The position numbers were made by a program, and so were the translations under genes. A stretch of DNA of 35,704 bases from Nitrosomonadales bacterium (lineage in GTDB: Bacteria > Pseudomonadota > Gammaproteobacteria > Burkholderiales > Gallionellaceae). The notes beneath the pieces were generated by a model. The model did not search any database. It was not told where the DNA came from and saw nothing but the letters and a program-made list of their open reading frames with translations. Shown in pieces: positions 11,861-24,801 of this stretch (position 1 is its first letter; each line of letters opens with the position of its first letter). The stretch spans positions 1-35,704 of the forward strand of contig JACPEI010000018.1 in assembly GCA_016183575.1 (NCBI GenBank), read 5' to 3'.

Positions 11861-14482
11861 CTACTCGCGCAAGATCGCCAGCGGCGGCAGCACGGCCAGC
11901 CGCCGCGTGCCCAGCCACCCCGCCAGCATCACTACCAGCATCCCGCCCAGCCCGCCGATCGGCCAGATGATCACGCTCGCTTGATACGGGATTTCCAGCA
12001 CGAAGCGCGCCAGCACCCAGCCCAGCAGCACCGCGCCGGTAGCGGCGAGCAGGCCGCTCAGCAACCCCAGCGCGGCGAATTCAGAGAGGTGCAAACGCCG
12101 CAGGTAGCGGCTGTCCGCGCCCAGGGTGCGCAGGATCGCCGCCTCGTTGATGCGTTCGTCCTGCGTGGCGAGCAGCGCGGCATACAGCACCGCGAGGCCG
12201 CTCAGCAGGGTGAACAGGAAGATCACGCTGGCGGCCTGCGCGATCTGCTCCATGATGCCGCGCACCTGCTCGATCATCGCGCCGGTGTCGATCACCAGAA
12301 GATTGGGGAACTCCCGCGCCAGCCGGTCGCCAGCTTTTACCTGGTCAGGCGGCAGATAGAAGCTGGTGAGATAGCTCGCCGGATAACCCTTCAGCAGCTC
12401 CGGCGTGGCGATCACGAAAAAATTCACCTTCATCGAATCCCACTGCACGCTGCGCAGACTGGTCACGCGCGCGGTGAAGCGGCTGCCGGCCACATCGTAG
12501 GCAAGCCCATCGCCGAGGCGGATGCCGAGCCGGTCGGCGATGCCTTCTTCGACCGAAAACTGCGCCAACCCCTCCCCAGCCCTCCCCTTTTCAGGGGAGG
12601 GTGACCACCAACTGCCGCTCACCAGCTCGTTCCACTCCGGCATCTGCTCGGCCCAGGAAAGGTTGAATTCACGCTCCACCAGATCGCGGGCGCGCGGGTC
12701 GGCATAACTTTCGGCATTAATGGGCGCGGCATTGATGGCAACCAGGCGCCCGCGCACCATCGGCAGCAACTGCGGCTGCGGCAAAGACTGGCGCGCGAAA
12801 AAATCCACCACCGCCTGTTGCTGGTCCGGCTGGATGTTCACGATGAAGCGGTTCGGCGTATCCGGCGGCAGCTTGCCCTGCCAGCTTTGCAGCAGGTCGC
12901 CGCGCACCAGCGTCAGCAGCAGCAGCGCCATGCCGCCCAGGCCGAGTGCCACCACTTGCAGCGCAGAGTCGCGCCCGTGCCGCGCGAGGTTGTTGAGCGC
13001 ATGCCGCAGTTGCGCGTGAAAGCGTGACGAATAGCGCGCCAGCCCGTGCAGCAGCAGCCAGGCCAGCAGGCCGAAGCCCAGCAGCCCGGCAAGCAGCCCG
13101 CCGAGCATCGTGAATCCCAGTTTGACCGAGCCGGAATGCCACAGGAACAAGGATGCCAGCACCAGCAAGGCGAGACCCCAGGCCAGCAAGGCGTTCGCCT
13201 GCGGCGCGCCGAGTTCGCGGCGCAGCACGCGCAGCGGCGACACCTTGCGCAATTGCAGCAACGGCAGGAAGGCAAAGCCGAGCAGCAGCGCGAAGCCGCT
13301 GGCCGCGCTCTTGATCGCGGGCAGCACGGAAGGCTGCGGCAGCTCCGTGTCGCGCATCGCTTCGATGTATCCGGCCAGCGCCGCCTGCGTGACATAGCCC
13401 AGCAGACAGCCGAGCAGCACCGCGACCACGCCGAGCAGCAGGAACTGGTACATGAACAGGCGCAGCACCTGCCCCTGCTGCGCGCCGAGGCAGCGCAGCA
13501 TCGCGCAGGTATCCAGGTGGCGCAGCACGAAACGCCGCGCCGCCAGCGCCATCGCCGCGCCCGCAAGGATCGCCGCGGTCAGCGCGGCAAGCCCGAGGAA
13601 ATGCTCGGCACGTTCCAGCGCGCTGCGTATCTCCGGCCGCGCATCGCGCACGTCTTCCAGCTTCTCGCCGTTCAAGAGTCCCGGCTTTAGCTCGTCGCGC
13701 AACGCCTCGACCTGCCGCGCCTCGCCTGCGACCATCAGGCGGTAGGTGATGCGGCTGCCCTCTTGAATTAGACCCGTCGCGGCGAGGTCGGCATCATTCA
13801 TCAGCACGCGCGGCGCGAAGCTGTAGAAACCGACCGCATGGTCGATGTCGCGCATGATGCGCGCCGCCACCGTGAAGCGCAGATTGCCGATGCCGACCTC
13901 GTCGCCGACGCGCAAATCCAGCCGGCGCAGCAAGCGCCCGTCCACCCACACCGTGCCACGCAGGGGAATGGAACCTTGCCTCTCACCCAATTGCAGGGGC
14001 TTGTAGGTTGGGTTAGCAGCTTTATCGCGTAACCCAACATCGCCATGTGCCGGAACACTGCTGACAGAATTCCCTCCCCCTGGCAGGAGGAGGGCTAGGG
14101 AGGGGGTCGAGCCGGCACCGTCGTCGATCTCGATCCTGCCGCGCAACGGATAACCCGCCCCGACCGCCTGGATTTCGGAGAGCAGGGTCTGCTCGCGATG
14201 CGCCACCATGCTCAGAAACGACCGGCTCTCCACCATTTGCAGCCCGTGCGCCTGCGCAGCAGCGCGATAGGCGGGCGGCAGCGGGCGCGCCGAAACGATG
14301 CGCAAATCCGCGCCGATCAGGCTGGTCGCCTCCTGCTGCAGCGCCAGCCGCACGCGGTCGGCGAACAGCCCGACGGTCGCGAGGCTGCCCACCGCGAGCA
14401 CCAGCGCCAGCAACAGCACGCGCCACTCGCCCGCGCGCCAGTCGCGGCGCAACAGGTTGAGGGAGAGGCGGAGGAGATTCAT
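11861..14482 (-). CDS. Large FtsX-type ABC transporter permease (YbbP/LolC-like), orphan, with in-frame repeat insertions
   Basis: Inner-membrane permease of the MacB/FtsX class, 873 aa. It has an N-terminal membrane segment (about 20-42), a periplasmic domain, a first FtsX block of three or more membrane helices (about 300-420; LTAAILAGAAMALAARRFVL and following), a second set of helices around 440-520, another periplasmic domain, and the C-terminal FtsX block (about 745-865). Such permeases pair with a LolD/YbbA-type ATPase and may extract lipids or lipoproteins; no ATPase gene is present next to it here. Residues 126-160 and 627-638 are encoded by palindromic repeats of two families, all kept in frame, so the periplasmic domains are longer than expected. 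The substrate is not deducible. Confidence 0.88.
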   Translation of the reverse strand: MNLLRLSLNLLRRDWRAGEWRVLLLALVLAVGSLATVGLFADRVRLALQQEATSLIGADLRIVSARPLPPAYRAAAQAHGLQMVESRSFLSMVAHREQTLLSEIQAVGAGYPLRGRIEIDDGAGSTPSLALLLPGGGNSVSSVPAHGDVGLRDKAANPTYKPLQLGERQGSIPLRGTVWVDGRLLRRLDLRVGDEVGIGNLRFTVAARIMRDIDHAVGFYSFAPRVLMNDADLAATGLIQEGSRITYRLMVAGEARQVEALRDELKPGLLNGEKLEDVRDARPEIRSALERAEHFLGLAALTAAILAGAAMALAARRFVLRHLDTCAMLRCLGAQQGQVLRLFMYQFLLLGVVAVLLGCLLGYVTQAALAGYIEAMRDTELPQPSVLPAIKSAASGFALLLGFAFLPLLQLRKVSPLRVLRRELGAPQANALLAWGLALLVLASLFLWHSGSVKLGFTMLGGLLAGLLGFGLLAWLLLHGLARYSSRFHAQLRHALNNLARHGRDSALQVVALGLGGMALLLLTLVRGDLLQSWQGKLPPDTPNRFIVNIQPDQQQAVVDFFARQSLPQPQLLPMVRGRLVAINAAPINAESYADPRARDLVEREFNLSWAEQMPEWNELVSGSWWSPSPEKGRAGEGLAQFSVEEGIADRLGIRLGDGLAYDVAGSRFTARVTSLRSVQWDSMKVNFFVIATPELLKGYPASYLTSFYLPPDQVKAGDRLAREFPNLLVIDTGAMIEQVRGIMEQIAQAASVIFLFTLLSGLAVLYAALLATQDERINEAAILRTLGADSRYLRRLHLSEFAALGLLSGLLAATGAVLLGWVLARFVLEIPYQASVIIWPIGGLGGMLVVMLAGWLGTRRLAVLPPLAILRE
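12569..12603 (+). repeat. CCCTCCCC-type palindromic repeat inside the ABC permease (second site)
   Basis: CCCCTCCCCAGCCCTCCCC followed by a short loop and AGGGGAGGG. It belongs to the same family as 14072-14106 but lies in the opposite orientation. Read on the minus strand it encodes SPSPEKGRAGEG between a WW pair and QFSVEEGIADRLG, where related permeases normally continue directly. Confidence 0.8.
14003..14038 (+). repeat. GTAG-type REP palindrome inside the ABC permease
   Basis: Starts GTAGGTTGGGTTA and ends TAACCCAAC; arms GTTGGGTTA/TAACCCAAC are exact inverted copies around an 18-base loop, with two further pairing bases possible. On the minus strand it is translated in frame as permease residues 149-160. 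Confidence 0.85.
14072..14106 (-). repeat. CCCTCCC-type palindromic repeat inside the ABC permease (first site)
   Basis: On the minus strand: CCCCCTCCCTAGCCCTCC, a loop, then AGGGGGAGGG. It is related to 12569-12603 (same consensus, inverted orientation in the gene). It encodes permease residues 126-137 (TPSLALLLPGGG). It lies 33 bp from the GTAG palindrome at 14003-14038. Confidence 0.8.
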
Positions 14483-14551
14483 TTTTTATTCACCATGAAA
14501 TCGTGGCCTGATTCCCGATTGTTTCTTACATTTCACCCGGGTTACTCTTAC

Positions 14552-14557
14552 TATAAT
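14552..14557 (+). promoter_or_regulatory. Consensus -10 box (TATAAT) of the first toxin-antitoxin module
   Basis: A perfect TATAAT lies 43 bp before the antitoxin ATG at 14601. No good -35 is seen at 17 bp; TTTCAC (14531-14536, spacing 15) and TTACAT (14526-14531, spacing 20) are poor candidates, so an activator or a weak -35 is possible. Confidence 0.55.
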
Positions 14558-14600
14558 TGTACCGGCTGAGTTGGTGCGTTAGTCATGGAAAAGGAAAAAT

Positions 14601-14825
14601 ATGAAGAACAGATTCGACGTTCCCATTGCGCAACTTTCATTCACCCAAAAACTGGATTTGATGGAGATGCTTTGGGCGGACATGATCGGCAACGAAAAAA
14701 ATCTGGCATCTCCAGCCTGGCATGAAGCCGTTCTCAATGATCGCGAGGCGGCCCTGGATGCAGGCAAGATAACCGTATCCAACTGGGAAGAAGCCAAGGA
14801 AAGAATCAAGAAAAACGTCTCATGA
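14601..14825 (+). CDS. RelB-like addiction module antitoxin (TIGR02574-type component)
   Basis: 74-residue protein of the putative addiction module component family: N-terminal helix LSFTQKLDLMEMLWADM, then SPAWHEAVLNDREAALDAGK and the closing WEEAKERIKK. These proteins neutralise a ParE/RelE toxin encoded immediately downstream. An AAGGAAAAAT sequence precedes ATG 14601. The stop codon overlaps the ATG of the toxin gene (ATGA at 14822-14825), the typical coupling of such pairs. The partner toxin is frameshifted. The N-terminus is probably the dimerisation and DNA-contacting part; that is inference. Confidence 0.85.
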   Translation: MKNRFDVPIAQLSFTQKLDLMEMLWADMIGNEKNLASPAWHEAVLNDREAALDAGKITVSNWEEAKERIKKNVS

Positions 14826-15116
14826 GGGTAAAAAATCCTCAGCGTTGCGGAGGACGACCTCGAAGAAGGTTACAGATTCCATGAGTCACAAGCAGACGGT
14901 CTCGGCACCTATTTTCTTGATACGCTTTACTCTGACATTGACTCGCTGGCCTATTTTGCGGGGATGCACCGCATCGTGCTGGGCTACCACCGGCTACTCT
15001 CCAAACGTTTCCCGTTCGCTGTTTATTATCGTGTCGCTGGCGATGAAGTCATCATATTCGCCGTGCTTGATTGCCGCCGAAATCCAAGCTGGATAAGGGC
15101 AAAGCTAACCAAGTGA
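14822..15116 (+). pseudogene. ParE/RelE-family toxin, frameshifted at an A6 run
   Basis: The ATG at 14822 overlaps the antitoxin stop. Reading from it gives a 20-codon dead end. Skipping one A of the run AAAAAA (14830-14835) gives a complete 97-residue plasmid-stabilisation toxin: MRVKILSVAEDDLEEGYRF and so on, with AVYYRVAGDEVIIFAVLDCR and NPSWIRAKL near the end, stop TGA at 15114-15116. The second part has no start codon of its own before residue 50. I therefore call it a frameshifted gene; slippage at the run, or an assembly error, could restore it. Confidence 0.8.
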
Positions 15117-15143
15117 TGAATTATGCCACGCTGGCTATGGGGC

Positions 15144-15183
15144 GCGAATTTAATCCGAACCTGACCCCCTTAAAATTACTTTA
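15144..15183 (+). repeat. Direct repeat, left copy
   Basis: CGCGAATTTAATCCGAACC (15144-15162) is identical at 19049-19067. The following C-rich and AT-rich bases to about 15183 are similar (TGACCCCCTTAAAATTAC versus CGCCCCCCCTTTAATTTCAC). Together the two copies bracket hicBA, prlF/yhaV and the three-gene cassette. Confidence 0.75.
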
Positions 15184-15239
15184 TCACCCTTGCTTTTAAC
15201 AACAAAGCGCTTAATATTGCCGCCATAAGGAGATTGATT

Positions 15240-15431
15240 ATGCGAACAGTCAAATTTACATCTTGGCAGGACGGCGAGTTTTTTATCGGCTTCCTGAATG
15301 AATATCCCGACTACCAAACCCAGGGAATGCATAAGGAAGAGCTTGCCGAAAATCTAAAGGACTTGCTGAATGATCTGGAATCGGGACATGTGCCATATGT
15401 CCGCAAGGTTGAAGAGTTGATGGTCGCGTAA
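15240..15431 (+). CDS. hicB: HicB-like antitoxin
   Basis: Short partial-RNase-H-fold antitoxin: VKFTSWQDGEFFIGFLNEYP, QTQGMHKEELAENLKDLLNDL. At 63 residues it contains the HicB fold but no DNA-binding C-terminal domain, so it is one of the minimal versions. Start ATG 15240 is preceded by AAGGAG at 15227-15232, seven bases away; the TTG at 15234 is less likely. The stop codon is directly followed by the hicA ATG, an arrangement with antitoxin first. It neutralises HicA by blocking its RNA-binding surface (family knowledge). Confidence 0.85.
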   Translation: MRTVKFTSWQDGEFFIGFLNEYPDYQTQGMHKEELAENLKDLLNDLESGHVPYVRKVEELMVA

Positions 15432-15605
15432 ATGAAAAGGCGTGACTTGGTCAAGGCGCTTGAAGACATGGGGTGCATCCTCGTCCGTCACGGTGGTCGG
15501 CATGACTGGTATACCAACCAGCAGACCAAACAATCCCAACCCGTTCCTCGTCACAACGAAGTCAACGATAACCTTGCAAAATCCATAATCAAGAAACTAA
15601 GCTAG
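15432..15605 (+). CDS. hicA: HicA-family mRNA interferase toxin
   Basis: 57-residue double-stranded-RNA-binding-fold toxin that cleaves mRNA. It begins MKRRDLVKALEDMGCILVRH, then GGRHDWYTN with the His expected to be catalytic in the family, and ends PVPRHNEVNDNLAKSIIKKL. Starts right after the hicB stop with no gap, so translation is coupled. Looks intact. It is shorter than many annotation cut-offs and easily missed. Confidence 0.88.
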   Translation: MKRRDLVKALEDMGCILVRHGGRHDWYTNQQTKQSQPVPRHNEVNDNLAKSIIKKLS

Positions 15606-15644
15606 CACCTGGCGATACAGCCGCTGAGCACTTAACCGTGGTCT

Positions 15645-15675
15645 GTCCCCGATTGTTTATGTCCCCGATTGTTTA
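15645..15675 (+). repeat. Two tandem copies of a 15-base word, period 16
   Basis: GTCCCCGATTGTTTA at 15645-15659 and again at 15661-15675. A related CCCGATTGTTT occurs at 14513-14523 upstream of the first antitoxin. The gap 15606-15891 between hicA and prlF contains this repeat, presumably the prlF promoter, and no gene I can support. Confidence 0.7.
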
Positions 15676-15891
15676 CGCGCGATGGGCAACGCATGACTCG
15701 CAGCCAAGACGGTTCGCTACTCCTTTCTTGTATCGGACTTTCACCGACTATCACTTGCCAGTTTGTGCTGGCGCACTCCCCTATTATTCCTTGGAACACA
15801 GCCCCTTTAATTCTGCGGGGTGCTTTTATTTGACGCGGCAATGCATTCGCATTACCATAAACGCTCAATATTTCACTGGAGGGAGCACGCC

Positions 15892-16221
15892 ATGGCTCAC
15901 GCGCTCAAACTCGAATCCACATTGACCGACCGCTACCAGACCACAGTTCCAAACGCGGTGCGCCACGCGCTCAAGCTGGGCAAACGCGACAAAATTCGCT
16001 ATCTCATCCAACCGGACGGAGGTGTGATGTTGGCGCGCGCATCCGGCGAGACCGGGGATGACCCTGTGCTGGGGAAATTCCTGAATTTTCTGGCGAGCGA
16101 CATGGCCACCCACCCCGAACACCTGAAAAGTATTGATGCCGGGTTGCGCAAGCGCATCAAGTCTCTGGTAAAAAATGCCAAGGTTGACCTTGATGCACCC
16201 TTGGCGGCTGAAGACGAATGA
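15892..16221 (+). CDS. prlF: PrlF-type AbrB-fold antitoxin
   Basis: 109-residue swapped-hairpin AbrB antitoxin (SohA/PrlF): LESTLTDRYQTTVPNAVRHAL, LGKRDKIRYLIQPDGGVML, then DPVLGKFLNFLASDM and a C-terminal tail that wraps the toxin. Start ATG 15892 has GGAGGG eight bases upstream; the longer frame from 15820 lacks a ribosome site. It should bind its own promoter and inhibit the YhaV toxin encoded next. The stop TGA overlaps an ATG at 16218. Confidence 0.9.
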   Translation: MAHALKLESTLTDRYQTTVPNAVRHALKLGKRDKIRYLIQPDGGVMLARASGETGDDPVLGKFLNFLASDMATHPEHLKSIDAGLRKRIKSLVKNAKVDLDAPLAAEDE

Positions 16222-16252
16222 GTTTGCCGTCGCCCACCTTGGTCATTCCAAA

Positions 16253-16717
16253 ATGGTAATTAATGGCTGGACGATTTTCGCACATCCGCTTTTTCTCGAT
16301 ACCCTTGAAGCACTTGCCGCCCAAGTAGCCGCGTTGCAGCAAAAAGACCCAAGCGGATATATCAACAAGAACGCAACCAAACGCCTGGCCGCCATCAATA
16401 AACTGGCATTTGAAGTCATCCCGCAGAATCCGGCGCGACCGGAATATCGTCAGGGAGCAACGCTGGGAGATGATCGCAAACACTGGTTCCGTGCCAAATT
16501 TTTCCAGCAATACCGTTTATTTTTCCGCTACCACGAGGAAAGCAAAATCATTGTTTACGCTTGGGTCAACGACGAAAAAACCAAGCGCGCATACGGCAGC
16601 GATACCGATGCCTACCAGGTTTTCCAGCGCATGCTGAAAAGCGGAAGCCCGCCAGATGATTGGCTGGATCTATTGGCCGAAGCGAAGCGTGCGGGTAAGA
16701 GGCTCAGAAAAAAGTAA
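16253..16717 (+). CDS. yhaV: YhaV-family ribosome-dependent RNase toxin
   Basis: RelE-fold toxin: MVINGWTIFAHPLFLDTLEAL, LGDDRKHWFRAKFFQQYRLFFRYH, KIIVYAWVNDEKTKRAYGSDTDAY and GSPPDDWLDLLAEAKRAG are close to E. coli YhaV. The first in-frame ATG is at 16253 with no Shine-Dalgarno. An ATG overlapping the prlF stop (16218) has the expected position but runs into a stop after MSLPSPTLVIPKW. The words GGTCATT (16241) and GGTAATT (16255) are 14 bp apart; removing one unit would join MSLPSPTLVI to NGWTIF. The domain itself is complete. Confidence 0.85.
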   Translation: MVINGWTIFAHPLFLDTLEALAAQVAALQQKDPSGYINKNATKRLAAINKLAFEVIPQNPARPEYRQGATLGDDRKHWFRAKFFQQYRLFFRYHEESKIIVYAWVNDEKTKRAYGSDTDAYQVFQRMLKSGSPPDDWLDLLAEAKRAGKRLRKK

Positions 16718-16747
16718 TGCGAAGCTGGCCACTTTAATTGCTAAATG

Positions 16748-17398
16748 TCATTGCTTCTCCCTGCGGCGAGTCAGCAACTTGTCATGCTGGAAGAATGAAC
16801 GCCTCGGTGCGATGCCCAAGTCGAGGAGTTCGTGCGGTGAAAGCTTCCTTGCTGCGTTAAGCACCTTATCGAGTTCCGCCATATACAGGGGCTCTATCTG
16901 CCCATCAACCCATGAGACGAGTTCCCGCAGCTTCGGTATCTCGGATTCGCCGATCGGGATAAGACGATGGCTGCGCGTGGTAGCTGAGATTACGCCCTGA
17001 GGAGTCATTCCCCTCATCTCGAATTCCAGCATCACGGCGTTGTCTTCAGACGAGTTGACTGAATGGGCAACGTGCTTGTTGCGAATCTCAATAAAATAGT
17101 TGTGTGTTTTATTGATATGCTCCGGCGCCGTATCAAGCAGGGTGTGCTCAAGTGAGCGACGAAAACCGGAAGCAAAGCATCGTGCATAAGCGATGACACA
17201 CGCGGTGGATACAGCCTCCCACACCAGCAATGGCTGGAGCGGTTCCTTCGACATTGGGGCGGGAGACAACGCCTCAAGCACTGAACAGTATTCAAGGACG
17301 CGATTCAAATCGTGTCGAATACCGCCGAGACAGGCAAGCTCCTCCGCTTCATCTGTGTCGAAGTGCCTGATTAGCGTAAATTCGCGGTCGGTGGTCAT
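16748..17398 (-). CDS. HEPN-like protein, third gene of the DUF4062/CoiA/HEPN cassette
   Basis: 216 residues, mostly helical. I see no close family, but residues 106-112 read RNKHVAH, an R-x5-H pattern of the kind that forms the RNase site of HEPN domains (R-x4-6-H). The surrounding residues (THNYFIEI before it, SVNSSEDN after) fit a helix-turn. The start ATG 17398 overlaps the stop of the CoiA-like gene (ATGA), so the two are made together. The C-terminus is basic (HDKLLTRRREKQ). Possible role: RNA-cleaving effector or its antitoxin-like partner in a defence cassette. The HEPN call is motif-based only. Confidence 0.55.
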   Translation of the reverse strand: MTTDREFTLIRHFDTDEAEELACLGGIRHDLNRVLEYCSVLEALSPAPMSKEPLQPLLVWEAVSTACVIAYARCFASGFRRSLEHTLLDTAPEHINKTHNYFIEIRNKHVAHSVNSSEDNAVMLEFEMRGMTPQGVISATTRSHRLIPIGESEIPKLRELVSWVDGQIEPLYMAELDKVLNAARKLSPHELLDLGIAPRRSFFQHDKLLTRRREKQ

Positions 17399-18150
17399 GA
17401 CAGATAAACCCCGCCGTTTTTGACAACCAGTGCACGCTTCCCAATGCGCTGCACACACCATTGCCCAGAATCTCCATATTGACAAAGACGGAGTAAAGTT
17501 TCATCGCCAAAATCAAAGAATACCGGCATGGTTGAATCAAACCAAACACTGCGTGGCTTCTTCCACGTAAAGAAATGATGCCCCCTGTAGTTCTCGGCCA
17601 CCTGATCGGCAATAAGTTTGGAATCGTGCAATTCTGCCAATGCCGAACCTACCATTTGTTCTGATTTCCTCCAGAACGCGGAAGCGCAGTTTGGGAAGAA
17701 GACTACGTCCTTTAGCAAATCCGCTTGGGGGTGTGGTAGCGGAGCTTTCTGTATTTCAAAGTTAGCCGCAAAGCCCTTGGCATCAACAATCCAGATCATC
17801 CTGCCGTAGAAGCGCTCTCTGGACTGAAGTTCTTCTAGTGGCATTGGAGAGTGCTGAAGTTCAATTACCAGACCTCTCTCGGTTTTGATATCCGCGACGT
17901 GTTTCTCACCGGTGCTACTGTCGAAATGAACAATTTCGCGCAACTTTTCCGGGAACAGCGATTTCCAGTTGCGATGCCAATCAGTTTCATTTTCCCACCA
18001 GGGGTCACAGTGAAATTTTCCATGATGAGCCCAATGCCAAGCGATTTTGCTACCACATTTCGGCAGGCATTCTCGTCCACATGCAGGACAAAGGCCGCGA
18101 AGTTGAGGTTGTGGCAAATGGCGCTCGTTATTTACAAGGGCGTACTGCAT
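17395..18150 (-). CDS. CoiA-like protein: zinc ribbon plus PD-(D/E)xK-type nuclease
   Basis: 251 residues. The N-terminus has a cysteine cluster CPACGRECLPKC (C21, C24, C28, C32) and WHWAHH, like the zinc ribbon of the CoiA competence family. Then ETDWHRNWK (about 54-63), HVADIKTERGLVIELQHS with D87, E97 and Q99 as likely nuclease residues of the restriction-like fold. The C-terminal 130 residues are unfamiliar (LWIVDAKG-like strand, then FDSTMPVFFDFGDETLLRLCQYG). Located 23 bp after a DUF4062 gene and overlapping the HEPN-like gene by four bases. No competence genes are nearby, which favours a nucleic-acid-degrading defence role; this is inference. Confidence 0.7.
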   Translation of the reverse strand: MQYALVNNERHLPQPQLRGLCPACGRECLPKCGSKIAWHWAHHGKFHCDPWWENETDWHRNWKSLFPEKLREIVHFDSSTGEKHVADIKTERGLVIELQHSPMPLEELQSRERFYGRMIWIVDAKGFAANFEIQKAPLPHPQADLLKDVVFFPNCASAFWRKSEQMVGSALAELHDSKLIADQVAENYRGHHFFTWKKPRSVWFDSTMPVFFDFGDETLLRLCQYGDSGQWCVQRIGKRALVVKNGGVYLS

Positions 18151-18173
18151 TAGTTGAAAGTGGTTGGAGGTGG

Positions 18174-19025
18174 TTATGGTCGGAGCAAATCAGCCGCATC
18201 GTAACCTTCACGGGTGACACGAAATATCTCTCCCTTGTGTCCGACCGACTGAACTAGGCCGTTTCGATCCAATTCATCAACTGCGCCTTCCCAGATTGCT
18301 CGCGACCGTGGGTCATTGGGTTCAACAAAATTTCGACCATTTGCCTGTACGGTAGAACCACCCATCCATGCAATAACTAAAATATCGCCGCCACCGGCGA
18401 CCGCTTCCAACAGCAGTTCTTTAGCTTCACGGGATAGGTTAGGCGCACCTGTTACTTTTGACGCTCCAGCCGGTGCAGCGATTATCCCGATGGCTGTCGG
18501 AAATAACGCAGTGAGGTATGGATTGCTGTTGAGCGTTATTGCGAGGTGCCGTCTGATTTTGTCATGGAACTCACTCGTTGATTCGTATGAATAAAATAAG
18601 CCACGAGCCTTGCAGTCATTCCTGAACTTGGTAAGCGCAGCGTATTGATCTTGATCGACACTATCCATCGCTACTGGCGCGGAAGAAAAATAGATCATTG
18701 CAGGCTTGCCTGCGGAAACATGCTCCTCAATCTCCTCGACGGTACCGCTTGCTGAGTTTTGTGTTGGCGTGCCAAGTCGAGTCCAAAAAACGGCAATGAG
18801 TAGATCACTATTTTTGAGAACCTGCCAATTTATAATTGATTGAGGATGATCGCCCATCAATGGCGAAGAGTGTGTCTCCCAGCCAACTGGTAGCAACACT
18901 ATGTGCCGAGTGAATGCATTCACCGCATTCCATTCATGGATAACCTCACGAACGATATTGCGCTCGATTTGGACATCGCTAGGTGAAGCGATCATTACAT
19001 TGCAAGCAGTTGCCTCAAATGTCAT
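18174..19025 (-). CDS. DUF4062/TIR-like N-terminal domain with C-terminal winged-helix-like region
   Basis: 283 residues. The N-terminal 120 residues follow the DUF4062 pattern: NVMIASPSDVQIERNIVREV, SIINWQVLKNSDLLIAVFW, TVEEIEEHVSAGKPAMIYF, a Rossmann/TIR-related fold that marks NAD- or nucleotide-handling or sensing proteins in defence loci. A proline/alanine hinge (IIAAPAGAS, about 186-194) separates it from a C-terminal helical part ending LDRNGLVQSVGHKGEIFRVTREGYD-like, typical of a winged helix. First gene of the three-gene minus-strand unit. ATG 19025 has no strong ribosome site. Function in the cassette could be sensing; not shown by sequence. Confidence 0.65.
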   Translation of the reverse strand: MTFEATACNVMIASPSDVQIERNIVREVIHEWNAVNAFTRHIVLLPVGWETHSSPLMGDHPQSIINWQVLKNSDLLIAVFWTRLGTPTQNSASGTVEEIEEHVSAGKPAMIYFSSAPVAMDSVDQDQYAALTKFRNDCKARGLFYSYESTSEFHDKIRRHLAITLNSNPYLTALFPTAIGIIAAPAGASKVTGAPNLSREAKELLLEAVAGGGDILVIAWMGGSTVQANGRNFVEPNDPRSRAIWEGAVDELDRNGLVQSVGHKGEIFRVTREGYDAADLLRP

Positions 19026-19048
19026 TTTTTATAGACCTCGTGCCTTTC

Positions 19049-19089
19049 CGCGAATTTAATCCGAACCCGCCCCCCCTTTAATTTCACTA
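19049..19089 (+). repeat. Direct repeat, right copy
   Basis: CGCGAATTTAATCCGAACC (19049-19067) is identical to 15144-15162, and the following bases are similar. It lies between the DUF4062 gene and the upstream HEPN-like gene. Confidence 0.75.
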
Positions 19090-19097
19090 CGCGGGCT

Positions 19098-19691
19098 TTA
19101 GGGCTCTTCGACAAGTGTTGCGCCATGCAGCCCCATTCCGAGAGTGAAGAGATTTTCTTTATCGTCTTGGCGAGCTTCATGGAGCCGCTCTAGGACAGTC
19201 CTGACGTCTTCGCGCGCACGCATTGGAAACTCCTTTGTCCTTGCCAACTGTTCCCAGTCTGTGAGCAACTCTTCATGGTAAGCAGCATGATAGTTCGCAG
19301 TGGTTCGCGTGATTGGCTTGGAGTGAATTTCGCCTGAACGACCGTGCGCCATAGTGTTCCGGAAGTTCAATAGTTTCGCGATCGTTTGTAGCGGTCGTGC
19401 TCCAGCACCATCTGAAAAGCAGACCCCAAGCTTCTCGGACAATAGTTCGAATTTCGACCATGGCGGCAAGCGCTCAACTTCATCCCAGCATGCGAACGTT
19501 CTTTCGCCAACGTGGTTGAGATAAGCCTCGAAGACAAAGGCCGTCATGACTACGCTGGAAAGAAACAGGTTCGGGGAGTTGTCTCGGCTTTCTATGGCAT
19601 CGTCGAGGAGGCACTTGGATGTGTGCCATAACTCGGCATACATGTGAACGGTACGCTGCTTAGTGACAATTACTTTTCGTGACTTAGACAT
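19098..19691 (-). CDS. HEPN-like hypothetical protein
   Basis: 197 residues, helical. RNTMAHGRSG at 111-120 contains R-x4-H, a strong HEPN RNase-motif candidate; MTAFVFEAYLNHVGER (about 49-64) before it fits the first HEPN helices, and a helix with NYHAAYHEELLTDWEQLAR follows. The start ATG 19691 has GAGAGG about ten bases upstream; upstream frame to 19742 lacks a ribosome site. It stands on its own between the DUF2971 gene and the DUF4062 cassette, with about 70 bp and a direct repeat separating it from the latter. Could be a co-regulated defence effector or an unrelated cargo gene. Confidence 0.6.
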   Translation of the reverse strand: MSKSRKVIVTKQRTVHMYAELWHTSKCLLDDAIESRDNSPNLFLSSVVMTAFVFEAYLNHVGERTFACWDEVERLPPWSKFELLSEKLGVCFSDGAGARPLQTIAKLLNFRNTMAHGRSGEIHSKPITRTTANYHAAYHEELLTDWEQLARTKEFPMRAREDVRTVLERLHEARQDDKENLFTLGMGLHGATLVEEP

Positions 19692-19842
19692 TATTGAAAG
19701 GCCTCTCGTTAATATCGCCCCAAAGTTCAACGGCGAACACACCTATATACGATAGTCGTTGCATCAAGGCGGCAAGTAGCCCACCCCTGACAACTCTATT
19801 TCACTCGGAGCAATAACGATTGTGCCCATGCAAGCAAGCCCT

Positions 19843-20547
19843 CTATCCGACATTTTTAAGATTGCTGACGCAAAGCGACTCAGGATGAATGCGTGCAATA
19901 TCTTTGATTGAGCCAATCAATAGCTTCTTTTCAGCCACTGTACCGGATTTCGCCTCTTCCTGAAAATCGTAGAGCTTGCTGATAACAATTTTCACTCCAA
20001 GCGGATCGATGCAAAAAGATTTCTTGCCTTTTCCAAATGCGAAACGAAATTCCTTTTGATCTGCGTAGGAAATGTTTTTCGCGAACGCGATCTTGGTGGG
20101 ATCCTTTACATCAAACTCGGCGCCCTTGCCCGGATCGTAATATATGGCTGGCCCGCAAAGCAATCCGATAGATTTATTGGTTGAAACCAGAGACATCACT
20201 TTTCGTCGAATCCGTTTTGCCAACTCTTCAGGATTGTATATTTCAATGCAACAATCCGCCTTGAAATCATGGAATAGCACCTTATCAAAAATTTCCGAAG
20301 TACAGAACACGAATACCAAATCAGAATCAATTTCGTTCAAGGATGTAAAGTCGCCATGAATCGTATTACCCGTACTCAAATTCTCAAGGGTTGCACCCCC
20401 TTCTGGTCTGTCGCGGTGGATGCCCTCCGTTACATCACCCCTATTTTTGCAATCCAATCGCTTGAAGTAGGAAAGATTTTTGAACAGTATCTCTCCGCGC
20501 AAAAATGCATTGGCATGTTGTGACGGGAGATATTTATAGAGAGCCAT
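19843..20547 (-). CDS. DUF2971-like protein
   Basis: 234 residues. The N-terminus MALYKYLPSQHANAFLRGEILFKNLSYF and the late YADQKEFRFAFGKG stretch fit the DUF2971 family, whose biochemistry is unknown to me. ATG 20547 lies four bases after the helicase stop codon, so it is the second gene of the helicase operon. The base composition is richer in A+T than the flanking housekeeping genes. Its coupling to a nuclease-helicase suggests a shared defence function; this is inference. The spacer 19743-19842 downstream of the next gene's start holds nothing recognised. Confidence 0.65.
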   Translation of the reverse strand: MALYKYLPSQHANAFLRGEILFKNLSYFKRLDCKNRGDVTEGIHRDRPEGGATLENLSTGNTIHGDFTSLNEIDSDLVFVFCTSEIFDKVLFHDFKADCCIEIYNPEELAKRIRRKVMSLVSTNKSIGLLCGPAIYYDPGKGAEFDVKDPTKIAFAKNISYADQKEFRFAFGKGKKSFCIDPLGVKIVISKLYDFQEEAKSGTVAEKKLLIGSIKDIARIHPESLCVSNLKNVG

Positions 20548-20551
20548 GCAG

Positions 20552-23500
20552 TTACTTCACTCGCCAAACCCAGCCAGGCAATGCTTCCAGCCGAGCTTTT
20601 CGCTCTATCGACAGGTTGGCTTTTGCTTTTCGTTGATTACTTACCCAGCTACCGAGTCGATAACCATCTGGTGTTTTACATAGTGCGGGAACCTTGGCAT
20701 GTCCTTCCCGGTCCGCGAATTCCTTGAGTAACTGGAACCATTCGTCCCACTGTTTTTTCTCCCCTGTAACTCTAACTCGTAATGCCCAGCTCCAACCTGG
20801 TAAGGCCTCCAGCCGTGCCTTGCGCTCCGGCGACAGGCTGTCTTTTGCAACACGTTGGGTACTTACCCAGTTACGAAGTCGATAACCATCTGCCGTCTTG
20901 TAATCTTGAGGAACCTTGGCATGCCCCTCCCGATCTGCGAATTCCTTGAGATGGCGAAATCCTTCATCCCACTTCTTATCTGCACGAGCATCTCGACCAT
21001 CCCAACTCCAACTAGGCAATGCCTCCAGCCGAGCTTGACGCTCTGGTGATATGGATAAATCATGTAACAGGTTGCCCCATCCGTTTGCTTCCAACCGTGA
21101 TTTGCTCTCCAATGAAAAGTTATCTTTCCCCGCACGTTGTGCAATTACCCAATTGCCAAGGCAGTATCCATCTGCTGTTTTATATCGCTTAGGAACATTA
21201 GCATGGCCTTCACGGTCTGCGAATTTTTTGAGGTGGCGAAAGCCTTCTTCCCACTTATCTAACAAGGGATCCCAACTCCATCCGGGTAATGCCTCTAGCC
21301 GAGACTGCTGCTCTGGTGAAAGTTGGTCTTTCACCACACGTTGTCTGCTTACCCAGTTACCAAGCTGATATCCATCAGCCGTTTTGTAACCCCCAAGAAC
21401 CTTGGCATAACCTTCCCGGCCTACATATTCACCGAGATAACGAAATCCTTCTTCCCAATGGCCTGCATGCCGATGCCTAACCTTCCAAACCCAACCGGGC
21501 AATGCTTCCAGCCGTGTCCTGCGCTCCGGCGACAGGTTATCTTTTGCCACTCGTTGATTACTTACCCAGAGACCAACTCGATAGCCATCTTCTGTTTTGA
21601 ATAGCGCAGGAGGCAAACAATGACCCTCCCGCTCCACAAACACCTCCAGCAACCCAAACCAGAAATTCCAGGACGCCGTGACCTGCTCAACCAGATGAGT
21701 GCGCAGCGCGCTGCCAAAATCCGCATCCACGGTGGCAGGCAGATCAATGGTGATTTTTCGCAGGCTCTCGGCGCTGACACCTGCGCCGGATTTTCTGCCC
21801 ATCTCAGTCCTGATCTGATCCAGCTCGCAGGCCAGCACATCGTCGTGCGCCTTCAACGCATCCAGCACCTCCCAGATGGGTTTGAAGTTGCTGGCCTCTA
21901 TCGTGTCTTCGGCATTTTCTCCGGCGGCAATAAACACCGGCAATACAATCGTACCTGCCTTCTTGTCCGGACTCAGGCGAATGGCGCGGCCCACGGCCTG
22001 GATGATGTCCACCTGGCTGCTGCGCGGATCGATGAACGCGACGCCGTCGAGGGAGGGTACGTCCACGCCTTCGGACAGGCAGCGCGCATTGCTCAGTAGC
22101 CCCCTCCTCAATCCGCCCCCGGTGCCCCCTATCCAACTTTCCCCCGCAGGCGGGAGAAAGGGCAAACGAGAAAGGCAATCTTCACTTCCTGCGGGAGAGG
22201 AGGCAAACGAGAGAGGCAAATTTGAATCTTCGCCGCGTTCATCTGCGCCTAAGTTTTTGAGTTGGTCGAGTTTGATCTTGCGTTTGTTGGCGGGCATGTT
22301 GCCGGATACGAAGTCGGTGCGCAGGGTTCCGCCGGGGCGGTGTTCGTCGCTGATCCACTGCATCGTTTGCTGAATGTCGGTGGCAAAGGCTTCGGCGCGG
22401 TTGACGCGGCTGTGGAAGCTGATGATGCGCTTGAGGTCGTAGTCCTTGATGGCCTTGAGCAGGCCGATCTGGGCGGCGAGCGATTCGCTGTCGGTTTCGA
22501 TGCCTGTGCCGGTGCTGACGAGTTCGCGGTTGGCGATCCACTGCGCGATGGTGGGGTCGTCCACGCCGATGATGACGACGCGGTAGTCGGTGAGCAGTTT
22601 GCGTTCGATGGCTTTGCCGAACGGCAGGGCATACAGGACTGCGCCAAACAGGGCGGCGTCATCCATGCCGACCACTTCGACGCCGCGATCTTCGGCGGCT
22701 TTATGGACGGTGCTGGAGTAGGTGCGCGGGGTGGCGGTGGCGAATAAGCGCTTGGCGCTGCGTATCTGGCCGTTGTCGAGGATGGCGGTGAAGTCGCTGC
22801 CTGCCTTGCCCGCGCAACGGTGGGCTTCGTCCGCCACAGCGAGGTCAAACGCGGGGATGGCCGAGTCGGCCTGGGCGGCGGCAATAACGAGCGAGGATTG
22901 GTAGGTGGAGAAAACCACGCGCTTGCCTGCACCGCCGAGAAAGCGTTTTACTTCCTCCGCATCCGAGGTGACGGGAAAGGCCAGGTCGGCCACGCTGTGG
23001 ATGGCTTCGTCGTTGTTCTTCGTGCCGACGGTTTGATCCGAGCAGACGCACAGCACTTCAAACGGTGTGGCGGCGGCGAATGTCCATTCGCGCAGGAGCT
23101 GGGACAGCAGCCCCAGGGACGGAACCAGCACCAGCGTGCATTGTGCATTTAGGGCTTCCTTGATCCACAGCGTGACGTAAGTCTTGCCCGTGCCGCAGGC
23201 CATGATGAGCTGGCCACGGTCGGCGGTTTGCAGCCCTTGCACCACGGCGGTTCTGGCTTCGATCTGGTGGTCGCGCGGTTCGGGGCGGGGTTTGCGCTTG
23301 GCTTGCGGCAGTGATTCAAAGTTGGCGGGATAGTCCAGCGCGGATTTATCGAAGTCGGACAGCAGAAAACGGATGACAGGTTTTTCCTGCGCATCGCAAA
23401 CTTGTTTTGCGTTACCGCCGATAAAGTCGGTGGTGGCGATCAGCAGGCGGTGCTGGATGCTTGGCCGGTTCGATTCGCTGAGGCATTTGTCCACATCGTG

Positions 23501-23761
23501 TTTGGTGATGTCGTAATCGGGCGAATAGCACTTGGCCTGCACCGCCCAGTTTTTGCCATCCTTGTGCTGAAACACCAGATCAATGCCGCAGTCCGCACCC
23601 CAGCGCCCCGGCCATTCATCCCACAGCCAGACCTGATCAACTTGCGTCGCCCATTCGGGATCGGCCTTGAGGAACCATTTGACGAAGCGCTCGAACTGCT
23701 TGCCGCGCTTGAGCGGGTCGGGGTCGAGGCTGTTGTAGAAATCGGAAAATTGGGTGGTCAT
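20552..23761 (-). CDS. Mrr-type nuclease / SF2 helicase with five helicase-associated repeats
   Basis: 1069 residues. Domains in order: Mrr-like restriction endonuclease (about 15-130; [16 protein letters not shown] with D61, then VQAKCYS with Q75 and K77); SF2 helicase core with Walker A MACGTGKT (187-194), DEAH box (311-314), ATATPR (341-346), motif [16 protein letters not shown] and motif [10 protein letters not shown]; then five helicase-associated (HA, PF03457-type) repeats from about residue 705 to the end. Helicases of this build are ATP-driven DNA translocases with an attached nuclease, plausible for restriction of foreign DNA. A 44-codon repeat-derived segment (22100-22231) lies in frame just before motif V. 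The HA part is visibly richer in A+T than the core. Operon with DUF2971. Confidence 0.88.
20555..21645 (-). repeat. Five tandem helicase-associated repeats (about 66 codons each) in the helicase gene
   Basis: Each unit has the plan W-x-x-x-F-x-x-L-x-x-[FY]-x-x-REG[HY]-x-x-[VL]-x6-KT-x-DGY-x-LG-x-WV-x-x-QR-x-x-K-x2[17 protein letters not shown]. Repeat 3 is about 20 residues longer: SRLEANGW and then [11 protein letters not shown], a partial internal duplication (around 21010-21110). DNA identity between units is high enough that recombination could change the count. Confidence 0.88.
22100..22231 (-). repeat. 44-codon repeat-derived in-frame insertion in the helicase
   Basis: The 132-bp segment encodes residues EDSNLPLSF to GLRRG between ERG and LLSNARCL. 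It contains two tandem half-units (TTGCCTCTCTCGTTTGCC and TTGCCTTTCTCGTTTGCC, minus strand), and CTCCCGCCTGCGGG, a palindrome typical of G/C-rich intergenic repeats. The boundaries are uncertain by one codon because both ends read Arg-Gly. Confidence 0.75.
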
Positions 23762-23778
23762 TTAGAGCTGCATTACCC

Positions 23779-23793
23779 GCCATGCAGCATGGC
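23779..23793. promoter_or_regulatory. Perfect 15-bp palindrome upstream of the helicase gene
   Basis: GCCATGC-A-GCATGGC, 18 bp before the helicase start codon. It could be an operator or an RNA hairpin sequestering the start region. The rest of the 23762-24008 spacer shows no gene. Confidence 0.4.
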
Positions 23794-24008
23794 AACGTCA
23801 TTGATTTTGGATTCGCTCTATCCAGTAATCCGGGCGACGGTGTTGGTGAGAAACTGCCATGAGCCAGACACGGGACTAAAAATACATCACCCGCAATCTA
23901 TCAGCAAAATCCCCTACACGCCATAGGACAAAATATCCAGGCCACCCTCCCCGCAAGCTCGACGCAATATCGCGGCACTACCGGATAAGCATTGTTCACC
24001 CGCAAAAT

Positions 24009-24362
24009 CTAGAACGAGTAGATAGCATAAGTCCTCCGGACAAATATGAGCGAAGCCAACGCGAGCGGAAGGAACATCCAGCCCAAGGCCACGGCCACCA
24101 GAAGCGCCCAACCCAGCTGTCTCACCGCCCCTTCCTTGTAAACTTTCCCTCCTACCCGCACACCGTAAATGTGGGCGCTGCAAATGAGCAACTCCATTTC
24201 CTTTCCGGTCTCCATGCAGTCCAGCAGGCATCTGGCGACGCGCACGCCTTGAAGGCTTTGCCCGCCAATTTCGATGGCCGATGCATCGAATGTATCGCCC
24301 GACCAGGCACCGTCACCGATCCCGGTTAGTTTGCCCTTTACAATCGCCTGACTCCAGATCAT
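24009..24362 (-). CDS. Small membrane protein of unknown function
   Basis: 117 residues. N-terminal 80 residues are soluble and beta-rich (AIEIGGQSLQGVRVARCLLDC, HIYGVRVGGKVYKEG), followed by one or two hydrophobic segments (LGWALLVAVALGWMFLPLALASLIF, about 83-107) and a short basic end. GGAG lies ten bases before ATG 24362. I do not recognise a family. An overlapping frame (23914-24231) is weaker in coding character and lacks a ribosome site. Confidence 0.55.
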   Translation of the reverse strand: MIWSQAIVKGKLTGIGDGAWSGDTFDASAIEIGGQSLQGVRVARCLLDCMETGKEMELLICSAHIYGVRVGGKVYKEGAVRQLGWALLVAVALGWMFLPLALASLIFVRRTYAIYSF

Positions 24363-24801
24363 TTTATTTCAACTCCAAACAGGTTTCAGATATGCGGCGC
24401 ATTTTCAGTACGGCTCTACGTACCGCTCGCTTATCCAAAATAATCCATTAACCCGCCATTCCCGCCTGCGCGGGAATGGCGCAGTTTTGTGCCAATAGAT
24501 TATTCAGGTTCATTGTAGCAATACGCTTTCGCTCCGAGGCGGTCTGCGGCGCAATATTCGCCATAACGATCTGCTTTACTCGCTTCCAAGCACGGCAGCT
24601 CGCACGAGATTCAAAAGATGCCGCCTGTTTTAAAGCAAATACGCCCGCAATTATGCAGACCTTTTCTTGCTATAGTTCATCCTGCTCAAACCCTCCAGAG
24701 GGAAAATGTCATGCAGACCATGCCGATCGCCGACCCGAAAGATGGAATCTGCCCCCGCGCGAGGCTGATTTCGCCTCACCCATGAATGGAGGAACGCATC
24801 A
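24363..24801. other. 439-bp gene-poor spacer
   Basis: Between two small hypotheticals. It contains the 26-bp inverted repeat at 24455-24480 and a TATAGT at about 24671 that could be a -10 for the downstream gene. A plus-strand frame 24476-24814 has no ribosome site and no recognisable protein, so I do not call it. Confidence 0.5.
24455..24480. repeat. Inverted repeat of CATTCCCGC type
   Basis: GCCATTCCCGC and GCGGGAATGGC are perfect 11-bp arms around a CTGC loop. This word is a common dispersed palindrome in betaproteobacterial spacers. Confidence 0.8.

Follow-up and report, generated by a model that had tools for sequence, protein, structure and literature searches.

Three closely spaced genes in a variable toxin-antitoxin and defence island of a Gallionellaceae bacterium are probably separate stand-alone modules

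Organization of the locus

The window analysed here is the whole 35,704-nucleotide stretch of contig JACPEI010000018.1 (positions 1 to 35,704, forward strand) from the Nitrosomonadales bacterium assembly GCA_016183575.1, family Gallionellaceae. Near its center lies a stack of three minus-strand genes: gene 1 (18174–19025), coding for a 283-residue, Swarozyc-like DUF4062 protein with a putative TIR-like N-terminal domain and a C-terminal domain; gene 2 (17395–18150), coding for a 251-residue CoiA-like protein with a zinc ribbon and a PD-(D/E)xK-type nuclease core; and gene 3 (16748–17398), a near-orphan coding for a 216-residue HEPN-like protein with the motif R106-N-K-H-V-A-H112. Genes 1 and 2 are separated by a 23-nt gap, and the start of gene 3 overlaps the stop of gene 2 through the tetranucleotide ATGA (17395–17398), so that the layout proposed by an earlier reading of the sequence alone (hereafter the sequence-only reading) is present in every detail. 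All three genes have relatives elsewhere and are therefore not chance open reading frames.

The surroundings of the stack are rich in toxin-antitoxin and restriction-like genes. Upstream, and also on the minus strand, are a gene for a protein with an RNTMAHG motif (19098–19691), a gene matching a PHROG of unknown function (19843–20547; E 1.2e-13), and a gene for a 1069-residue protein with Mrr_cat_2, a ResIII helicase and five HA stretches (20552–23761). The match of this last protein to a type IIG enzyme model (E 2.4e-143) covers the leading portion of the model, with no methylase domain among the matches listed. Downstream, Pfam identifies a PrlF/YhaV module, a HicA toxin with its presumed partner, and a pair (14601–15116) composed of an Unstab_antitox gene and a weakly matching ParE-type gene. 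In this pair only the last 50 residues of the toxin frame are in an open stretch; the same pair in a relative, G016 (locus L155, 2693–3207), has a toxin frame of 97 residues. The three toxin-antitoxin modules, the nuclease-helicase gene and the defence-related setting described by the sequence-only reading are thus all borne out by the neighboring genes. The GC content is 0.47–0.53 across 15–21.5 kb, against 0.56–0.67 in most other windows, and no Rfam family was found within 14500–24500. Scans for promoters and terminators returned 7 and 13 candidates where 7.1 and 11.5 were expected; neither count is above chance, and we therefore only infer that the three genes are co-transcribed.

A direct repeat around the stack

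A 35-nt direct repeat on the minus strand is located just upstream of the stack (19049–19083), and a second copy in the same orientation, 86% alike, lies at 15143–15177. Together the copies bracket a 3.9-kb segment that contains the HicA pair, PrlF/YhaV and genes 1–3. The gene with the RNTMAHG motif, directly upstream of the repeat, is a second gene in this region with a HEPN-type motif, with a weak match to HEPN_MAE_28990 (E 0.098).

The 19-nt core of the repeat, GGTTCGGATTAAATTCGCG, occurs three times in the window's genome, at 15143, at 19049 and on another contig (G000:C54:11184–11202), and by chance it would be expected 0.00 times in the window, even when three mismatches are allowed. With at most one mismatch it is found in eight of 60 other genomes of the genus (nine of 61 with the window's own) and in none of 40 genomes outside the genus; controls gave 0 matches. 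Outside the window the core was seen in ten places, five of which, chosen by eye from their open reading frames, were scanned with Pfam; in these five the repeat has ParE, PIN with MazE, HigB with HTH_3, PIN, or TumE genes no more than 0.7 kb away. The similarity between the window and G016 stops 23 nt from the repeat copy at 15143. Folded as single-stranded DNA, eight copies of the repeat are no more stable than shuffled sequences (z -0.62 to 1.38). It is a fair guess that the repeat is a cassette boundary.

Gene 1: a DUF4062 protein resembling Swarozyc

The N-terminal part of gene 1 is matched by the PADLOC candidate model PDC-S60 over residues 9–165 (E 1.7e-27) and by Pfam DUF4062 at E 1.6e-4, with a score of 22.2 bits that is below the family cut-off of 24.7. 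DUF4062 is also matched by six of six gene 1 family members at E ≤1 (best 5e-6), and the relative on plasmid pANL exceeds the cut-off with 27.1 bits. Full-length relatives of 277–282 residues, with 44–52% identity, are present in three genomes of the phylum, on pANL and on one viral contig. With the PDC-S60 match, the family-wide DUF4062 matches and these relatives, the DUF4062 domain that had been proposed for gene 1 is well founded.

The winged-helix-like end proposed for the same protein fared less well. Profile searches with six family members gave HTH_45 in one (E 0.083) and RQC in one (E 0.16), and no winged-helix or HTH family in the protein of the window; other, unrelated weak matches in family members, such as GyrB_insert (E 0.0033) and DUF7833 (E 0.0066), outscore HTH_45. 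Sequence searches against solved structures gave no significant match, either with gene 1 (best E 0.14) or with its profile (best E 0.19).

A 2026 preprint (PMC13174449) presents DUF4062 as a family of TIR-like NADases, and Swarozyc as an anti-phage protein that joins a DUF4062 domain to a C-terminal HTH or winged auxiliary domain and works as a single protein. In the same account the phage portal acts through the auxiliary domain to trigger Swarozyc, and the Klebsiella protein, KpSwz, requires its E97. Gene 1 shares with KpSwz, as described there, a DUF4062 N-terminal domain, a conserved glutamate, a C-terminal auxiliary part and a defence-island setting, the two having been likened through the published description. 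Glu97 and Glu98 of the gene 1 stretch SGTVEEIEEH are invariant in nine of nine aligned family sequences, and one or the other may be the equivalent of KpSwz E97. In domain order and glutamate position, gene 1 thus fits the Swarozyc build as published; unlike Swarozyc in that description, it is followed by two further genes. By analogy, we suggest that gene 1 is probably a stand-alone NADase defence gene, predicted to be sensor and effector in one, and not a bare sensor acting for its neighbors.

Gene 2: a CoiA-like nuclease

Gene 2 resembles the CoiA-like PD-(D/E)xK nucleases in its zinc ribbon, its D-x9-E-x-Q active site and the order of its modelled structural elements, and differs from the Pfam members in scoring below the family cut-offs, both for CoiA_N (E 4.6e-5, 23.3 bits; cut-off 26.3) and for CoiA_nuc (E 0.054, 14.1 bits; cut-off 20.3). 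Two of its relatives (L006 and L007) reach 33.9 and 30.8 bits with CoiA_N. All 24 aligned sequences keep, without exception, the zinc-ribbon residues C21, C24, C32, H39, H42 and C48 and the nuclease-core residues E55, D87, E97 and Q99. A structure model of good quality (pLDDT 86.4) has the element order of a PD-(D/E)xK nuclease, and structural matches to it were found; a sequence-based search of solved structures with the gene 2 profile gave nothing better than E 0.42. The zinc ribbon and CoiA-like D/E-x-Q nuclease named by the sequence-only reading therefore hold, and the protein is predicted to cut DNA, probably foreign DNA.

The family of gene 2 is widespread, with 303 relatives returned by an alignment-based scan of the genome_contigs collection, and their settings vary. 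On a Vibrio plasmid the CoiA-like gene is in two pieces and is surrounded by small genes, DUF3265 among them, with neither a DUF4062 nor a HEPN-like neighbor, in what we take to be an integron-like setting. In loci L034, L045 and L047 a related gene for 325–347 residues, presumably DUF2971-like as judged by eye, follows the CoiA-like gene directly or closely. In L086, L095 and L099 a gene for a protein of about 920 residues precedes the CoiA-like gene and a common protein, helicase-like by eye, is encoded downstream, and L092 has the upstream gene without the common downstream protein; this arrangement is possibly a multi-gene system of its own.

Pfam and plasmid annotations name the family competence protein CoiA, and gene 2 could accordingly be read as a competence or DNA-uptake gene that lies in a defence setting by accident. 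Neighbors of CoiA-like genes were sampled as 78 open reading frames of at least 150 residues, from 24 of 50 long loci; this sample has no control set and is illustrative only. Housekeeping genes, such as EarP and a sugar transporter, do occur among these neighbors, but the matches listed for them also include two GajA-type, one Mrr-type and three integrase proteins. The distribution of the family is moreover patchy, with relatives in five of 398 genomes of the phylum and two of 76 of the genus (the window's own genome counted in both) and in 43 plasmid records, and one of the anti-phage systems recovered in E. coli is a CoiA-domain protein (PMC9519451), to which gene 2 is likened by the shared domain. 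We regard a competence role as most improbable.

Gene 3: a near-orphan with a HEPN-type motif

Gene 3 carries an R-x5-H motif (R106 and H112) with a polar asparagine after the arginine. The HEPN superfamily RNases are characterized by Rx4-6H with a polar residue following the arginine, as that rule is given in PMC3710099, and the gene 3 stretch R-N-K-H-V-A-H fits it. The searches yielded a single relative, encoded on an Arthrobacter plasmid (32.7% identity over 110 residues, E 4e-6); it keeps the motif as R-N-K-Y-V-A-H within a common block, YFI-x2-RNK-x-VAH-x-VN. At E ≤1 there is one further plasmid match, from Aureimonas (E 0.3). Searches of 101 near relatives and of 398 genomes of the phylum gave no relative beyond the window's own genome, tblastn gave none in phages, and pattern scans of the genome_contigs and viral_contigs collections, whose reach is close relatives only, gave none either.

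In contrast to its motif, the family membership of gene 3 finds no match at the level of profiles. Pfam, PADLOC, NCBIfam and PHROGs contain no family that matches it at E ≤1, HEPN families included, and its profile gave nothing better than E 0.43 against the sequences of solved structures. HEPN_AbiU2 was tried as a candidate family and is not supported, the hhalign comparison with two proteins of that family giving a non-significant probability of 0.6%, although two-sequence profiles are weak. A single-sequence structure model (mean pLDDT 44.5) is too poor to use. Of the earlier HEPN-like designation, the R-x5-H motif thus stands, and is kept in the Arthrobacter relative, whereas a HEPN profile match is absent from the four libraries; we therefore treat gene 3 as a putative HEPN protein at the level of its motif.

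Gene neighborhoods of the three families

The sequence-only reading interpreted the stack as one defence system, in which a DUF4062 sensor would govern DNA- and RNA-cleaving effectors. Such a system would account for the common order, strand, spacing and overlap of the three genes; their families suit defence, and the stack reaches from directly behind the repeat to the toxin-antitoxin block. The neighborhoods of the three families argue against it. The best 80 of the 303 CoiA-like relatives were read together with their flanks, 69 of the 81 loci (window included) having flanks of 1.5 kb or more on each side. With tblastn (1e-3), none of the 80 shows a relative of gene 1, of gene 3 or of either of the next two genes upstream, and profiles of genes 1 and 3 recovered no relative from 760 open reading frames in and around these loci. 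When open reading frames within 5 kb were clustered, the largest cluster besides the CoiA-like gene itself was present in only five of 81 loci, window included; the family has no constant neighbor. As the best 80 of the 303 loci share no partner consistently, the CoiA-like protein probably works alone.

The DUF4062 loci give the same picture: relatives of gene 2 or gene 3 are absent from all 28 records, which represent 27 distinct places and extend to distant members of the family; most of these records have flanks of only about 1.5 kb. Within the genus, the only other genome with gene 2 (G011) has different neighbors around it. Gene 1 is likewise present in two of 76 genomes, the window's own counted, and the other carrier (G040) has a remnant of 51–70 residues adjoining genes that resemble restriction genes by eye. 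No partnership among the three families is conserved in any locus examined, and we found no literature that joins CoiA with HEPN and TIR. To this is added that DUF4062 proteins of the gene 1 build, as presented in PMC13174449, already combine sensor and effector. The three-component interpretation, whose combination recurs in none of the loci examined, is in our view very unlikely; this is also the result that the sequence-only reading had itself set as its refutation.

A narrower grouping would join genes 2 and 3, a nuclease and a HEPN protein, in a two-gene unit, perhaps an effector with its regulator or a pair resembling toxin and antitoxin; the DUF4062 gene would then be an independent neighbor. 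The ATGA overlap suggests translational coupling of the two genes, and other CoiA-like genes overlap their neighbors too, by -3 nt with the downstream gene in L034, L043 and L047 and by -3 nt with the upstream gene for about 920 residues in L086, L095 and L099, the partners being various. A gene 3 relative occurs in none of the best 80 of 303 CoiA-like loci, and the 8.3-kb locus around the sole gene 3 relative found, on the Arthrobacter plasmid, is free of CoiA-like genes. The rarity of gene 3 makes its partnership hardly testable; on this evidence we consider the pairing unlikely.

The island as a whole is variable among relatives. Stretches that lie past the conserved FtsX gene were compared in six relatives. 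The stretches of five contain nothing of the window at 14.5–24 kb; that of the sixth, G016, has 14064–15119 of the window together with 178 nt of the start of the helicase gene.

Discussion

We propose, with a probability of roughly 0.7, that genes 1–3 are three separate stand-alone modules stacked in a variable, low-GC toxin-antitoxin and defence island, and not one three-part system. The ATGA overlap and the 23-nt gap speak against this proposal, in that they look like the spacing of co-evolved operons. A related possibility is that, in this lineage, the three genes form one newly assembled operon, in which a NADase of the Swarozyc type is joined by a DNase of the CoiA type and, through translational coupling, by a HEPN-type RNase whose family is outside the searched libraries. 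Such an operon would provide three layers of action, on NAD+, DNA and RNA, from one transcript, and would be moved as a block between copies of the genus-limited repeat that also mark toxin-antitoxin cassettes; we consider this distinctly unlikely.

On the preferred reading of separate modules, three horizontally moving single-gene modules would have been stacked head to tail in the island and would probably be transcribed together only through their position. For gene 1, by analogy with Swarozyc as described in the preprint, the C-terminal part may bind to a component of the phage, which for the published relative is the portal, and binding would release the TIR-like N-terminal domain, which would degrade NAD+ and halt the infected cell. 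Gene 2 would act as a zinc-ribbon PD-(D/E)xK nuclease on DNA that is probably foreign, and gene 3 may act as a HEPN-type RNase.

In a defence island, close spacing and codon overlap thus need not mark genes as one system. Gene 1 adds a full-length member, from a probable iron bacterium, to the DUF4062 NADase defence family newly described in the preprint, and the repeat, which adjoins toxin-antitoxin and defence genes, may offer such islands a route of assembly.
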